DNA of 27,337 nt from a virus. The notes under the pieces are model-generated. The model saw only the letters and a program-made list of their open reading frames with translations, ran no database searches and was not told the origin of the DNA. The translations under genes and the position numbers were made by a program. Positions within the stretch are counted from its first letter, which is position 1. Each line of letters begins with the position of its first letter. Below, piece after piece: positions 17,666-25,012 of this stretch. The DNA is taken from positions 1-27,337 of IMG/VR virus record IMGVR_UViG_3300027763_000195. The stretch is one strand, 5' to 3'.

Positions 17666-19627
17666 TTGAAAGTATTACGTATTCCCGCCGTAATAATTTT
17701 AACTTTATCAGCAGCATTTTTCCCAGTACTTTTTACTGAGGATAGTTATGCCTCGTGTATTAATACACAACAAGCAGAAACAAACGCTACAACCAATCCA
17801 CCAGTAGCACCCATTGAAGGTGAAACTGTTGTAGTAACTACCCAAGTTACTTGTGGTGGCGATGATGTCTCTTATCGTGTTGCTATACCATCAAGCATAG
17901 TTTTTGCTAGTGAAACTTATACAGCAGTTTATGCAACGACCAATTCAGTTATTACATTTGGTCGTCCTGATGGAACCTATTGGACTTATCCGTCAACCCC
18001 ATCTATATCTATAGCCAGTCAAGATTGGGTAGCATACCCACCTCAACATCCTGATGAACACTTTATTATTAACACCAGTGCTTTGGGTTTTCAAATTGAT
18101 TTAGCAGCAAGACCTTATGCTAATCAAAACATTGAAACTTTAACTACAATAATTACAACTGCCGTCATTAATGCTGATACAACTTTAAGCATTACTTATG
18201 TTGTAAACAATGTGCCAAGTGGAACACGAACTGGTGCTGTATTACCTAATGGCACTATTGTTACTTTAGAACAAGCAGGAGTAATTCAAGTTCAAGTTGC
18301 TCCACCACCACCTGGTGAAACACCAACGGCAGTAGTAGTTCCAGATACCCCGACTGTTACTCCGAGTCCAATTCCTTCTCCAAGTCCGTCCGAGAGTTCC
18401 ACAGTAACTCCCTCCGATACGACCACTTCAACTTCACCCTCACCTCAGCCAACTCCAACTCCAACTGTTTCACCTTCTGAGAGTCCGACAGTACAAGCCT
18501 CTCCCGAACCCTCTCCAAGTCCAACTGTAGAGCCAACACCTTCGCCTTCTCCCACCCCAGTGCCGACTCCAGTTCCTTTACCTGCACCTGCAGTGGAACC
18601 GACCCCCACACCAACCCCAGCACCAGCCCCGTCACCAGTCCCAACCCAGCCCATAATTCCTCCAATTGTTATTCCTCCCCCACCTGCACCTGAACCTGTA
18701 GTGGTAATTGTTCCTGTTGCAATTCCTGACCCAGAACCTGTGATTGAGCCTGTTCCTGAGCCTGTTCCTGAGCCTGTTCCTGAGCCTGAGCCTGAGCCTG
18801 AGCCGCCTGTATTTGAAGAGTCATTATCTGAGCCTTCCATAGGGCAGCCCGTTCTTCCTGAAGAGCCACTACCGCTTGTGATAGAGCCACCTGTAGAGGT
18901 ACAACCCATTGAGGAACCGCCTCCGATTGAAGAACCCCCTGCTTCTGAAGAGAATAATCCTCCAGATAATCCAATTGATTCAACAAGTCCTGAGACTGCT
19001 CCAGAACCAAACGATAATCCCACCGAAGAACCACCAGTTGAACCTCCTGTTGTAATAAATGAACCAGTGGTAGAAGATACACCTAAACCAGAACCATTAC
19101 CTGAAACACCACCAGCAATTAAAGGTGTTGATTTAGTTCCTAATAGTCCTGAGCAATTACCAGTTGACATCCCAAAACCTGCACCAAAGGAAATATTAGT
19201 TCCTCACATTCAGGTAGACGTTGCTGGTATTGAAAATGGTGGCATTCAATTCTTTGGTACCCAATCACAACCTCAAGTAGTTCAAGAAGATGGAACCCTA
19301 ACACCAGCCGCACCCCCTCCAGGGTCAGGCGAAGAGATACCACCAGAGGCTATAACTACTGAAGATACATTCATTGGTCAAGTAGGTGGTACCACATTCA
19401 ACGCACCTGATATTGCGGTGCCTGTTGAATTAGTCCCAGTAGAAATTCCTGCAGCCCTTGATGCAATTCCAGGAGCAGGAGAAGCAGTACAGGCTATCAA
19501 TGAAGCCTATGTTGCACTTGCAAATATCGGTAACGATATGTCCCCTATCACCCGTAAAAAAGCAAAGAAGATACTTGTAATCACCGCCTTACTAGGGCAA
19601 GTATCAGCATTTAGAAGGAGAATGTAA
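17666..19627 (+). CDS. Secreted protein with long proline-rich linker, lysis region (653 aa)
   Basis: The start is TTG 17666, with GGAGAG seven bases before. Residues 2-24 are a classical signal peptide ([20 protein letters not shown]) with likely cleavage after SYA (residue 30). Residues 31-200 form a small beta domain with cysteines at about 31 and 63 that could form a disulphide ([18 protein letters not shown]-type segment). Residues about 212-540 are a very long Pro/Thr/Ser/Glu linker, including PSPSPS, PTPTPT and PEPVPEPV runs. The last 120 residues return to folded sequence ([20 protein letters not shown]) and finish with [20 protein letters not shown], a short hydrophobic stretch framed by basic residues. 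An extracellular wall-spanning role is likely; no catalytic motif is seen, and no LPXTG signal. Confidence 0.7.
18746..18804 (+). repeat. Short Glu-Pro coding repeat
   Basis: Twelve- and six-base units GAGCCTGTTCCT and GAGCCT repeat in tandem and encode [10 protein letters not shown] and PEPEPE. They lie inside the proline-rich linker and are likely to change copy number by slippage. Confidence 0.7.
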
Positions 19628-19815: not shown

Positions 19816-20050
19816 CATATGGAACATACTTGCACGGATAATTGCAGTCTTTGCGGCATCAGGTCTATCAGTGATAGGTGCGGGTGCAGTTGTGGGAATC
19901 TCAACAACGAAAGCAGTGATTCTTGCAGGGACTCTGGGTGTTGCAACTGTTGTTGAACGTTTAGCCAGAGGCTTTTTAGACGATGGTAAACTTACTGTGT
20001 CAGAAATCAACGAAGCCTTTAAAAAGGTAGATAAGAGAAACGATGACTGA
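19805..20050 (+). CDS. Small membrane protein, putative holin (81 aa)
   Basis: The ATG at 19805 lies inside the previous gene and overlaps it by 11 bases; AAGGGTAAAG is the likely ribosome site. The protein has two closely spaced hydrophobic segments (IIAVFAASGLSVIGAGAVVG and AVILAGTLGVATVVERLARG) and a charged C-terminal tail (LTVSEINEAFKKVDKRNDD). The tail's D-G-K-L-T..E-I-N.AF pattern is common among actinophage small holin-like proteins. Its stop region overlaps the endolysin start by eight bases, supporting a holin-endolysin pair. Best single holin candidate in the block. Confidence 0.65.
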   Translation: MVSNIWNILARIIAVFAASGLSVIGAGAVVGISTTKAVILAGTLGVATVVERLARGFLDDGKLTVSEINEAFKKVDKRNDD

Positions 20051-20504
20051 GAAAAGCGCAAATGGGTGGATAGCAAGTAAAGACCCAAATGAAATTCATA
20101 TCAAGCAATTCCTTGTAGCAGGAACAAATATAAAACTACGATGTAATCAAGTATGTGGTCCTGTGCTGGCTGCCTTTGCAGCAGAGTTCCACGAAAAAGT
20201 AGAACCTATTGATGAAGGTACCCTTGACGATTGGGGATACGCATACCGTCCCATCAGGGGGCAAACAGAAAACCTTTCCAACCATAGTTCGGGGTCTGCA
20301 ATTGATATTAATGCAAGCCAGCACCCACTTGGAAAAGAAAATACTTTTAAACCTGAACAGATTAAAGTAATTCAAGAACTTATTAAGAAATATCATCTGG
20401 TCTGGGGAGGAAATTACAAGCACCGCAAGGATGATATGCATTTTGAAATCAATGGGACACCTGAAGAAGTCAAGGCTTTGGCAACAAAGTTAGGACTTAA
20501 GTAG
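20043..20504 (+). CDS. Endolysin, peptidase M15 (VanY/D-Ala-D-Ala carboxypeptidase-like)
   Basis: The 153-residue protein has the zinc-binding signature of M15 peptidases: SNHSSGSAIDIN gives H81 and D88, and DDMHFEI gives the third ligand H133 with a catalytic acid two residues before it. The RPIRGQTENLSNHSSG loop and WGGNYKHRKDDMHFE end match family-typical segments. M15 endolysins cut the peptide stems of peptidoglycan. There is no signal peptide or wall-binding domain, so export needs a holin, two of which lie immediately upstream. It overlaps the holin-like gene by eight bases. It may work with the secreted proline-rich protein. Confidence 0.85.
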   Translation: MTEKSANGWIASKDPNEIHIKQFLVAGTNIKLRCNQVCGPVLAAFAAEFHEKVEPIDEGTLDDWGYAYRPIRGQTENLSNHSSGSAIDINASQHPLGKENTFKPEQIKVIQELIKKYHLVWGGNYKHRKDDMHFEINGTPEEVKALATKLGLK

Positions 20505-21098: not shown

Positions 21099-21119
21099 CA
21101 ATGTTTGATGGGAGATTAA

Positions 21120-21308
21120 ATGATAAAACTTGATAATTATGAACTACCTGCTCACGTATCTTATTCAGCCTTTACTACATATCTAACCTGTGGGTATCAG
21201 TATTACTTAGGTAGATTACTTAAACTAGAAGAAGAACCATCCATCTGGTCTGCTGGAGGCAGGGCTTTCCATCACGCTGCAGAATTGTGGGACTTAGAAA
21301 ATGAGTAA
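21120..21308 (+). CDS. Cas4/RecB-like nuclease, N-terminal piece of a split gene
   Basis: The ATG at 21120 follows GGGAG. The 62 residues hold the N-terminal hallmarks of RecB-family/Cas4 nucleases: YSAFTTYLTCGYQYYLGRLL with a cysteine (C24), and SAGGRAFHHAAELWD with the His (H51) of the first active-site motif. It stops at TAA 21306-21308 just after that motif, while the remaining motifs are in the next gene in the +1 frame, overlapping by eight bases. Alone this piece has no catalytic Asp/Lys and could not cleave. The two parts might be joined by frameshifting, assemble as two subunits, or be one gene broken by a single-base error. Confidence 0.7.
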   Translation: MIKLDNYELPAHVSYSAFTTYLTCGYQYYLGRLLKLEEEPSIWSAGGRAFHHAAELWDLENE

Positions 21309-21900
21309 TGAATTCTGGGATAAGGCTTGGGTTAAAGAAACTGAAGGATTAGATTTTGCCACTGCTCGCAGGGCAGGGCGTGTCACAATCGCCAATCCAA
21401 ATAAAGAAGATGCTGCGTGGTGGAATGAAAAAGGTTCCCTATGGACAGACCAATATATCCAATGGCGTAAGGCTAATTCTAACTGGAAAATATGGCGCAC
21501 CAATGAAGGTGCCAGAGCCATTGAACTAGAACTCAATCCCATCATTGCTGACGTGCCAGTGAAGATGGTGATTGATAGAATTTTTGAGGTTAACGGACAA
21601 CTTGTGATTGTTGACCTTAAAACTTCTTCTCGCAGACCTACATCTGATTTACAACTTGGCTTTTACAAAGTTGGAGTTGAAATGATGTTAGGTGTTACCG
21701 TCAATCAAGGAAACTACTGGATGTCCAGAGAATCTGGGACAGGCGAAATGATTGACCTAAGTAGATATACTTTAGACACGCTTGAGTATTTCGTGTCTGG
21801 CTTTGATAAGGCTCGCAAGGCTGGTATATTTCTTCCTAACCTATCCAGTTGCAGTTTCTGTGGACTCACAGAACACTGCCAATTCACAAAGGAAAAATAA
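21301..21900 (+). CDS. Cas4/RecB-like nuclease, C-terminal piece of a split gene (PD-(D/E)XK core, Fe-S cysteines)
   Basis: This 199-residue piece carries the catalytic core: KMVIDRIFEVNGQ with D92, then VIVDLKTSSR with the D105-x-K107 pair, and a downstream Q118 (DLQLGFYKVG) typical of RecB nucleases. Its end has C184, C187 and C193 (SSCSFCGLTEHCQF). Together with C24 of the upstream piece these would make the four cysteine ligands of a Cas4/AddB-type iron-sulphur cluster. The ATG at 21301 lies in the upstream gene's last codons (ATGAGTAATG) and has a poor ribosome site, so translation may depend on coupling or frameshifting. Phage Cas4-like exonucleases are thought to process DNA ends for recombination. 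The next gene abuts directly. Confidence 0.8.
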   Translation: MSNEFWDKAWVKETEGLDFATARRAGRVTIANPNKEDAAWWNEKGSLWTDQYIQWRKANSNWKIWRTNEGARAIELELNPIIADVPVKMVIDRIFEVNGQLVIVDLKTSSRRPTSDLQLGFYKVGVEMMLGVTVNQGNYWMSRESGTGEMIDLSRYTLDTLEYFVSGFDKARKAGIFLPNLSSCSFCGLTEHCQFTKEK

Positions 21901-22287
21901 ATGGCATCAGAAGACTATAAATTACAAGTATCTATCCGTACTGATAAAGCATCAAATGCAGATATGATTAACATACGCGCTAATTCCGCAGAAGAACTTA
22001 GCGTATTGCTTGAAGGTGTTGCAGACTTTGCACATCAGATTGCTGCTACTGCAAAGGCGGTATCTGGAGCGTATGTTGTACTCCCTTTAGCGACATCTAC
22101 TTCAACAGTAGACACCGTGCAACAAACGTTCTCCGTTCCAGACCAGGCAAGGCTAGCGTCCCCTACTTGTATTCACGGGGCACGCCAACACCGAAGTGGA
22201 ATCAGCAAAAAGAGTGGTCAGCCGTACGCAATGTGGGTTTGCCCAGAACCAATGGGCGCAACTCAATGTAAACCAAGTAATGGCTAA
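21901..22287 (+). CDS. Zinc-ribbon-like replication-region protein (128 aa)
   Basis: The ATG follows the previous TAA directly. The N-terminal half (YKLQVSIRTDKASNADMINI, then RANSAEELSVLLEGVADFAH) is a small alpha/beta domain seen in many actinophage proteins of unknown role, with an N-M-I-N-I/V-R-type strand. The C-terminal part has a metal-binding set: SPTCIHGARQHRSGIS, VCPEPMGATQCKP (three cysteines and two histidines). The gap between is Thr/Ser/Val-rich and flexible. It sits between nuclease and helicase genes. A single-stranded-DNA-associated or replisome accessory role is plausible from position. No enzyme motif is visible. Confidence 0.6.
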   Translation: MASEDYKLQVSIRTDKASNADMINIRANSAEELSVLLEGVADFAHQIAATAKAVSGAYVVLPLATSTSTVDTVQQTFSVPDQARLASPTCIHGARQHRSGISKKSGQPYAMWVCPEPMGATQCKPSNG

Positions 22288-22365: not shown

Positions 22366-23148
22366 ATGAGAACCCTCACCCGCAGTATTGGCAGAGCAGA
22401 CATTGGTGGAGAACCATTGCCCTCTGTGTTTAAATCTTTAGAAAGCAATAAGATTATATTTCGTAGAGCAGAAGTATCTATGCTCGCAGGGACTCCAGGT
22501 GTTGGTAAATCCACACTGGCTTTAGCATTAGCACTTAAGATGAAAGTTCCAACCCTTTATATATCAGCAGATACCAATGCCCACACTATGGCTATGCGTC
22601 TAGCATCAATGATTTCAGGTAAGAACCAAACCGATGTTGAGGAATTACTTCAATCAGATATTGGCTGGACTAAAGCAACCATTTCAAAGAGCAGTCATAT
22701 AGTCTGGTCATTTGAATCTAGTCCTAGCCTTCAAGATATTGATGAGGAAGTTCAAGCCTTTGAAGAACTGTGGGGTTGTCCTCCCGTTGCTATCTTTGTA
22801 GATAACTTAATGGATATTGCTACCGATGGTGGCGAAGAGTTCTCTTCGATGAGGGCTATTATGAAAGAGTTAAAGTTTTTAGCACGTGCCACCAATGCTG
22901 CAGTTCTTGTTCTGCACCACACCAGCGAGGGCGTGATGGGCACACCTTGTCAGCCACGCTCTGCATTACAGGGCAAGGTCGCGCAATTACCAGCACTTAT
23001 ATGTACACTAGGTGTTGTGGGAACAGCAATGGCGGTAGCGCCAGTAAAGAACAGATACGGCAGGGCAGATGCCAATGCTAATTTATTAGCGTGGTTGGCT
23101 TTCAATCCTGAGTATATGTTTATGGACGACATTCCAGAGAACGCATAA
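22366..23148 (+). CDS. DnaB/RecA-like replicative helicase ATPase
   Basis: The ATG follows AGGAG with five bases' spacing. The 260-residue RecA-fold ATPase has a Walker A GTPGVGKST (residues 42-50), a Walker B hydrophobic-Asp segment VAIFVDNLMDIA (141-152), and an Arg-rich switch with the double-His sensor VLVLHHTSEG (182-191). C-terminal NRYGRADANANLL resembles the arginine-finger / DNA-loop region. It matches the C-terminal domain of phage DnaB-like helicases; no N-terminal primase-binding domain is present, consistent with short phage helicases. The primase encoded downstream would be its partner. Its stop overlaps the next ATG by one base. Confidence 0.8.
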   Translation: MRTLTRSIGRADIGGEPLPSVFKSLESNKIIFRRAEVSMLAGTPGVGKSTLALALALKMKVPTLYISADTNAHTMAMRLASMISGKNQTDVEELLQSDIGWTKATISKSSHIVWSFESSPSLQDIDEEVQAFEELWGCPPVAIFVDNLMDIATDGGEEFSSMRAIMKELKFLARATNAAVLVLHHTSEGVMGTPCQPRSALQGKVAQLPALICTLGVVGTAMAVAPVKNRYGRADANANLLAWLAFNPEYMFMDDIPENA

Positions 23149-23637: not shown

Positions 23638-23826
23638 ATGGAAGACGAATACGCACAATATGTAGCCACAATGCTGGCTAATAAAGATTATGCAGAACAC
23701 TTAACTAAATGTATTCAAAAGATTGTTGATGCTAAACCACCAGCAAAAGATGACTACACTTCAGGTATATCAGATGGACTTGACTGGGCAGTACGCATTT
23801 TAGTTAAAGATAAGAGTGCTTATTAG
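23638..23826 (+). CDS. Small acidic hypothetical protein (62 aa)
   Basis: The ATG at 23638 follows GGGAGAGATAAG and the previous TAA by one base; an upstream in-frame extension to 23590 overlaps the previous gene without a ribosome site and is rejected. The protein is helical and acidic (MEDEYAQYVATMLANKDYAE, then SGISDGLDWAVRILVKDKS). Its stop overlaps the GTG start of the resolvase-like gene. No domain is recognised. It may be a small partner of one of the neighbouring nucleases. Confidence 0.55.
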   Translation: MEDEYAQYVATMLANKDYAEHLTKCIQKIVDAKPPAKDDYTSGISDGLDWAVRILVKDKSAY

Positions 23827-24188
23827 TGGCTAGCGTTAAGTACAACAAGGTCAAGGGAGCCACCTTTGAAACCGATGTGATGAGATGGCTACGCAAGATG
23901 GGTGTAATAGCAGAGCGATTAACTAAGGCTGGGGCTAAAGACGAAGGCGACATTATGGCTATAGTCGCAGGTCAGACCTACATTCTAGAGTTAAAGAATC
24001 GCAAAGCATTAGACTTGCCGACCTTCTGGAAAGAAGCAAAGGTTGAAGCAGCCAACTATGCCAAGGCTAGAGAGTTAGAGTTGATACCGCTTGCTTATGT
24101 AATAGTTAAGCGGCGTAATGCTGGCATAGAACAAGCGTGGGTAATTCAAGACTTAGACCAATGGCTGAAGGAAAGAAATGACCAATGA
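23826..24188 (+). CDS. Holliday-junction-resolvase-like nuclease (PD-(D/E)XK)
   Basis: The start is GTG 23826, overlapping the previous TAG. The 120-residue protein has the compact resolvase pattern: KGATFETDVMRWLRKMGV with E15 in helix 1, AKDEGDIMAI with D42, and YILELKNRKALDL with the E55-x-K57 pair, followed by a helix (FWKEAKVEAANYAKARELEL) and a final strand. This matches archaeal/phage Hjc-type junction resolvases, which cut branched DNA during replication and packaging. It overlaps the primase N-terminal gene by 11 bases. Related single-domain nucleases that act as endonucleases are the main alternative. Confidence 0.72.
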   Translation: MASVKYNKVKGATFETDVMRWLRKMGVIAERLTKAGAKDEGDIMAIVAGQTYILELKNRKALDLPTFWKEAKVEAANYAKARELELIPLAYVIVKRRNAGIEQAWVIQDLDQWLKERNDQ

Positions 24189-24546
24189 CCTACCGAGTAT
24201 CAAAGACATTCTCGTACACTATGGAGCAGACGTACGAAGAACACACGGACAAGTTAATCTCAAGTGCCCATTCCATAGTGATACGCACCAAAGTGGTAGT
24301 GCCAACTTGGACGACAACATCTTCATCTGCTTTGCCTGTGGAGTACAAGGAAATAGTATTCAAATAATTTGTCTTCAAGAGAGGGTAGGTATTAATGAAG
24401 CAGTCCGTTTCGCAGAAGGAATTACTGGGGAAAGCAGCCGAGAGGTACGCGGGAAGCATCTCTCTGGCGGAAGATTACCTAAGAAGCAGGGGGATACCTT
24501 TAGAAGTAGCACGAGTGGCGCGATTAGGCGTAGTAGAACATCCTGA
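24178..24546 (+). CDS. DNA primase, zinc-binding N-terminal piece of a split gene
   Basis: The ATG at 24178 follows GAAGGAAAG and overlaps the resolvase gene. The piece contains a CHC2-type zinc finger: KCPFHSDTH gives C30 and H33, and ICFACGVQGNS gives C51 and C54. Then comes a primase-like helix (LQERVGINEAVRFAEGITG). After residue about 84 the sequence turns into Arg/Ser-rich nonsense-like residues (RSSTSGAIRRSRTS) and ends at 24546, while the TOPRIM part continues in the +1 frame. The homologous protein probably crosses over near 24420-24445, at GGGG (24427-24430). It would read the template trinucleotide and recruit the TOPRIM half. Confidence 0.75.
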   Translation: MTNDLPSIKDILVHYGADVRRTHGQVNLKCPFHSDTHQSGSANLDDNIFICFACGVQGNSIQIICLQERVGINEAVRFAEGITGESSREVRGKHLSGGRLPKKQGDTFRSSTSGAIRRSRTS

Positions 24547-25012
24547 AGTTGGTCACGAATTATTTAGAGGGAGACTTTCAATACCTTACATAACTAAATC
24601 TGGTGTTGTTGACTTAAGATTTCGTTCACTTAACGCAGCAGTTGAACCAAAGTATATGGGTATGACTGGTGCCGAAACTAAAATGTATAATGTGTTAGAT
24701 GTTGATAAAGCAGGGGACTCAATCTGTGTATGTGAAGGTGAGTTGGATACATTAACCATCTCATCTATGGTTGGTTGGGCTTGTGTTGGCGTGCCTGGTG
24801 CTAACTCTTGGAAGAAACATTACACAAGATTGCTTGCTGACTTTGAAAGAGTATTTGTTTTTGCCGATGGAGACCAAGCAGGTACTGACTTTGCTCGCTC
24901 TCTGGCAAGAGAACTACCAGTTACCATCATTCAGATGCCCGATGGGGAAGATGTTAACTCTGCCTTCGTAAAGCACGGAGCCAACTACATAAAAGTGATG
25001 TTTCAACATTGA
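24395..25012 (+). CDS. DNA primase, TOPRIM catalytic piece of a split gene
   Basis: Residues about 15-60 resemble the RNA-polymerase-like helical segment of DnaG (SLAEDYLRSRGIPLEVARVA, RLGVVEHPEV, RLSIPYITKSG). The TOPRIM motifs follow: VCEGELDTLTISSM with E114, and VFVFADGDQAGTDFARSLAR with D158 and D160. These bind the metals for RNA primer synthesis. The frame also has its own ATG at 24395 with GGTAGGT upstream, so independent initiation inside the first gene is possible. However, residues 1-14 (MKQSVSQKELLGKA) are not obviously native. A natural fusion of both pieces would be a primase of about 280 residues. Downstream TTG start overlaps its TGA. Confidence 0.8.
   Translation: MKQSVSQKELLGKAAERYAGSISLAEDYLRSRGIPLEVARVARLGVVEHPEVGHELFRGRLSIPYITKSGVVDLRFRSLNAAVEPKYMGMTGAETKMYNVLDVDKAGDSICVCEGELDTLTISSMVGWACVGVPGANSWKKHYTRLLADFERVFVFADGDQAGTDFARSLARELPVTIIQMPDGEDVNSAFVKHGANYIKVMFQH

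Follow-up and report, generated by a model that had tools for sequence, protein, structure and literature searches.

The window (27,337 bases of an IMG/VR virus record, 41.5% G+C) encodes a phage PD-(D/E)XK nuclease in two overlapping open reading frames, pieces A and B. With a probability of roughly 0.8, the two pieces form a stable two-polypeptide enzyme in which translation of B is coupled to that of A and the catalytic site and a predicted Fe-S cluster are common to both chains. Neither an error nor a frameshift accounts for the break, which is a lasting evolutionary arrangement that recurs. The window nuclease belongs to a known family of phage nucleases and represents a widespread, apparently undescribed variant made of two polypeptides; no report of a two-gene or split Cas4-like nuclease was found in the literature, with subscription papers and preprints outside the coverage. 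The split gene contains the following elements.

21110–21114, plus strand: Shine–Dalgarno-like GGGAG, 5 nt upstream of the ATG of A
21120–21308, plus strand: piece A, ORF of 62 residues; N-terminal helices that bear the first cluster cysteine, Cys24, and the RecB-type His motif at His51
21189–21191, plus strand: Cys24 codon of A, invariant residue
21270–21272, plus strand: His51 codon of A, predicted metal-site histidine, invariant residue
21301–21308, plus strand: start/stop overlap ATGAGTAA, with the start of B within the last codons of A and including the TAA of A
21301–21900, plus strand: piece B, ORF of 199 residues; PD-(D/E)XK core and three C-terminal cysteines
21574–21621, plus strand: Asp92-to-Lys107 codons of B (D92 and D105-x-K107 catalytic motifs), invariant
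21850–21879, plus strand: Cys184-to-Cys193 codons of B (C184, C187 and C193, predicted cluster ligands), invariant

The two ORFs, their +1 relation, their overlap in ATGAGTAA and the positions of C24 and H51 in A and of D92, D105, K107, C184, C187 and C193 in B all agree with a preliminary description of this DNA. The same description proposed that removal of one A from the A-run at the junction would join the frames. The A-run and the +1 relation are present, but an exact ordinary family member would not be restored, as ∼20 profile positions of the loop that are present in uninterrupted relatives are missing at the junction of the window.

Pieces A and B match consecutive parts of one profile in both PF12705 and phrog_1870. 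In Pfam PF12705 (cut-off 22), A corresponds to positions 1–48 (30.4 bits) and B to positions 83–247 (33.1 bits), and the uninterrupted sister L102 scores 69.9 bits. In phrog_1870, annotated as 'exonuclease', A covers positions 11–63 and B covers positions 85–289. The profile of Cas4 proper (PF01930) gives 21.7 bits, just under its cut-off of 22.7, and B of the L150 lineage reaches 24.2 bits. By profile score, the window nuclease is assigned to the PF12705 'Cas4-like' group and not to Cas4 proper. The His, Asp and Asp/Glu-x-Lys catalytic residues of the PF12705 group are all present, with H51 in A and D92, D105 and K107 in B. Moreover, the four-cysteine 1 + 3 layout of a predicted Fe-S cluster is found in conserved form, with C24 in A and C184, C187 and C193 in B. 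The earlier proposal that the two pieces make up one Cas4/AddB-type nuclease, each contributing to the cluster cysteines, is supported. Members of the PF12705 group are single polypeptides, whereas two ORFs are observed in the window and in all near relatives, which makes the window nuclease a variant rather than a plain member of the group.

The closest known counterparts are the Cas4-like exonucleases of Mycobacterium, Rhodococcus and Propionibacterium/Cutibacterium phages (PF12705; PHROG 1870 and 69), which share the profile family and the motif order. In phages Jester, GaugeLDP and CA1NRNZ, the Cas4-like gene lies near a DnaB-like helicase gene, as in the window. However, the inspected actinophage enzymes consist of one uninterrupted ORF of ∼270–330 residues, and the window enzyme consists of two polypeptides with a shortened linking loop. 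The PF12705 proteins of Mycobacterium and Propionibacterium phages formed one clade in a 2017 Cas4 phylogeny from which short fragments were discarded (Hudaiberdiev et al. 2017, PMC5704561). Cas4 proper (PF01930), which functions in CRISPR adaptation, and ACE1, an Argonaute-associated Cas4 family (9iab), match the split nuclease in fold and in the four-cysteine 1 + 3 layout, but each is a single chain. The nuclease domains of AdnA/AddB/RecB and Dna2 exhibit the same nuclease-domain fold and motifs; they are parts of large helicase-nucleases, whereas the window nuclease stands alone and is split inside the domain. No CRISPR genes were recognized in the examined part of the window, and the adjoining genes are phage replication genes.

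A scan of IMG/VR with B yielded 229 relatives, the best 80 of which were compared. All 80 have the break; in each record that shows the two pieces, A and B are distinct ORFs in the same +1 relation. Two records from other metagenomes encode a B protein identical in sequence to that of the window, and the split also appears in two GenBank entries for the metagenomic phage ct2KA10. Both pieces are under purifying selection, with a median dN/dS of ∼0.08 for A and ∼0.10 for B.

Further searches and HMM classification of loci extended the split set to 234 loci, which comprise 187 distinct sequences over the A-to-B stretch (some contigs were entered twice). The position of the break is the same in all 187, and all three relative frames occur: frame 0 in 27 (5 abutting and 22 separated), +1 in 98 (69 overlapping and 29 other) and frame 2 in 62 (12 ATGA/GTGA, 22 TAATG and 28 separated). 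Sorted by junction type, the same 187 sequences comprise 69 overlaps of 8–20 nt, 12 ATGA/GTGA junctions, 22 TAATG junctions, 5 abutting TAG-TTG junctions and 79 separated pairs, in which the gap between A and B ranges from 75 to 1934 nt. Approximately 70 other compared loci and the inspected annotated isolate genes are uninterrupted. Several lineages contain complete ORFs between A and B, such as a 114-residue ORF in L151 and a 64-residue ORF in L204, and the inserted ORFs are often themselves joined by ATGA-type overlaps. The ORFs between the halves lie at the following locus positions.

L151: 2133–2477
L204: 1814–2008
L193: 1897–2004
L224: 1928–2008
L179: 1432–1974
L175: 1858–2010
L315: 2152–3962

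Each lineage has its own small ORFs here, as though gene gain were favoured at the junction. The inserted ORFs have no functional match, and one of them weakly matches a PHROG of unknown function. At one further locus (L233, 1418–1957), A is in frame with the C-terminal part of B, with ∼110 residues missing between them, as in a deletion variant or an assembly chimera.

A split copy also occurs in the genome of a cultured actinobacterium, Phytoactinopolyspora halophila YIM 96934 (L315), so the arrangement cannot be a product of metagenome assembly. In this locus, A (66 residues) and B (214 residues) are separated by five ORFs and lie a few kilobases upstream of a helicase-like ORF; the surrounding region looks like a prophage. 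A search of genome contigs with the window clade gave no matches, and a second genome-contig search retrieved L315 together with four large helicase-nuclease-type ORFs. Among 395 genomes of the class to which L315 belongs, the few strong matches include no further split copy, and the weaker matches are AdnA-like or host RecB-like ORFs, as judged by size. The next best match after L315 (L324) is uninterrupted.

To obtain a one-chain model, the L117 lineage was used as a surrogate: its A and B are in frame with one TAG between them, and the TAG was read as a residue. AlphaFold2 with the L117 surrogate and 33 other sequences produced a confident single-domain model (pLDDT 91, pTM 0.87). In this model, the junction forms a lower-confidence loop (block mean 68) between helices 43–65 and 71–89. 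Foldseek matches of the model include ACE1 (9iab), AdnA (6ppr), Dna2 (5ean) and Cas4 (8d3l), with TM-scores by query length of 0.60 for ACE1 and 0.52 for Cas4. The best PDB matches by sequence profile are AdnA-type nuclease domains (AdnA at the top, E 4e-14) and ACE1. Based on the one-chain model and the fold matches, the break is predicted to fall in a surface loop inside one domain, with A providing the N-terminal helices and B providing the core.

The preliminary description had left open whether the window encodes a two-part nuclease, uses a frameshift, or carries an error or mutation. The A-run at the junction might suggest that the sequencing or assembly is at fault, or that this genome has recently acquired an inactivating mutation. 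The probability of either is close to nil: the split recurs in all 80 close relatives from separate metagenome assemblies, two of them with a B identical to that of the window, so this genome is not alone in being split by one base. Moreover, purifying selection acts on both pieces, the A-run is missing in many lineages and a cultured bacterium carries a split copy. The residues also argue for a two-part enzyme. H51 of A and D92, D105, K107, Q118, Y122, C184, C187 and C193 of B are invariant in the 234 split loci, and C24 of A is a cysteine in 231 of them, with the position not covered in the other three. Together with the same break in 80 of the 80 closest relatives, this invariance is far beyond chance. 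A reading in which B works by itself, with or without a cluster, and A is a remnant or has another role is unlikely. Although A is just 62 residues long and the D, D-x-K and QxxxY motifs all lie in B together with three of the four cysteines, Cys24 and His51 are kept in A without exception and A is strongly constrained, with S14, S16, C24, L30, G47, A49 and H51 invariant over 14 split lineages. In addition, every B with enough upstream sequence is preceded by an A, even at a distance of ∼1.9 kb; the B pieces that lack one lie at contig ends or in shorter cuts of the L315 locus.

Programmed +1 ribosomal frameshifting that fuses A and B into one protein is less probable still. Within the clade of the window the relation is always +1, the short overlap would permit a shift, and the same genomes contain a two-ORF primase whose +1 relation is kept in every compared locus; a minor frameshift product in the window clade would be compatible with the frame variation elsewhere. 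However, the junction strings differ and contain no common slippery string (GAAAATGAG, GCAAATGAC, GCCAATGAC, GACAATTAA and GACAACGAATGA), and neither a conserved shift site nor a conserved frame relation is found across the split family. B keeps its own ATG, which moves: all 80 near relatives have an ATG in the B frame near the stop of A. Relative to that stop it mostly stands at position −5, but the L050 group has it at −8 and −14, L069 at −11 and L056 at −17. Between L056 and L069, two Tyr codons swap TAT and TAC, and one ATG survives in each. The Asn codon that carries the ATG of B is AAT in 64 of 64 sequences and, where the ATG lies elsewhere, AAC in 5 of 16, an indicative comparison among related sequences, from which the start-codon counts come as well. 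Close and distant split relatives exhibit other frame relations, in-frame stops and whole ORFs between A and B, and no frameshift can bridge a split that contains whole genes. For the family, the frameshift alternative is thus refuted. Most near relatives have an AGGAG/GGAG Shine–Dalgarno sequence 5–6 nt upstream of the start of A, and none at a working distance before the ATG of B, a pattern that would be expected for coupled translation.

For the two-polypeptide nuclease, a well-motivated mechanism can be proposed. A would be translated from its own Shine–Dalgarno site, and ribosomes that end A would restart at the overlapping ATG to produce B, such that translational coupling supplies both pieces from one message. 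The 62-residue A chain, with its two helices, one cysteine and active-site histidine, would dock onto the 199-residue B chain, which contains the putative nuclease core with its D, D-x-K and QxxxY motifs and three cysteines. Of the ligands of the predicted Fe-S cluster, A would supply one and B three, and the cluster would therefore hold the chains together. The metal site would likewise be completed by the histidine of A, and neither chain would be expected to be an active nuclease alone. The enzyme most likely serves DNA-end processing in phage replication or recombination, the role proposed for the uninterrupted actinophage relatives.

In trees calculated without the junction columns, the split rows form three groups (the window with L117; L150/L111/L143; and the L179 group) that lie between unsplit groups, or four groups with L315. 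The window group and a large uninterrupted group are sisters (support 96/95). In the AU test, placing all split rows in one clade gives a p value of 0.0385, and placing just groups I and II together gives 0.0699; a single origin is therefore disfavoured, although not firmly. A larger tree requires four changes, three of which are forced by well-supported branches, with L315 on a long weak branch. These trees favour three or four separate fissions, repeated at one loop, or a combination of fissions and re-fusions; one old fission with later re-fusions is possible.

A broader proposal has about even odds: a widespread class of phage nucleases would have arisen by repeated fission at one loop, with the catalytic metal site and the Fe-S cluster each composed across two chains. 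The cluster would serve as a cofactor-dependent staple, and a nuclease that may be toxic would become active only once it is assembled, while the gap would be an entry place for small phage genes. M. smegmatis grows more slowly when phage Cas4-family exonucleases are overexpressed (PMC11797047), and a need for controlled assembly may plausibly explain the splitting. If the two-polypeptide reading is correct, many uncultivated phages and one cultured actinobacterium contain a natural split nuclease with an active site and Fe-S cluster common to two chains. Such an enzyme would be a direct means of studying what phages gain from splitting enzymes, whether regulated assembly, protection from toxicity, cluster-based oxygen sensing or freedom to shuffle halves, and a natural template for split-nuclease tools. 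It would also be a warning about gene callers and family surveys in which short fragments are discarded, as in the 2017 Cas4 phylogeny: they overlook these systems or record the small half as an orphan ORF.

The genes around the split nuclease form an actinophage-type replication/recombination block, which also includes a sigma-factor-like gene and a primase in two ORFs.

21901–22287: gene like mycobacteriophage L5 gp49
22366–23148: DnaB-like helicase
23826–24188: RusA-like resolvase

The DNA primase is encoded by a zinc-finger ORF (24178–24546) and a Toprim ORF (24395–25012) that overlap by ∼150 nt, a second case in these phages of an enzyme divided between two ORFs, here one of replication. 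Its +1 relation is identical in every compared locus and in gp57/gp56 of Mycobacterium phage GaugeLDP, whereas that of the split nuclease varies; because the primase relation never changes, frameshifting or a dual-coding overlap is worth considering for the primase. Upstream of the nuclease gene, the window encodes a 653-residue protein (17666–19627) with a long Pro/Thr/Ser/Glu-rich repeat stretch behind a signal-like N-terminus, and a 153-residue ORF (20043–20504) that by eye resembles an M15/VanY-type peptidase and may be an endolysin.
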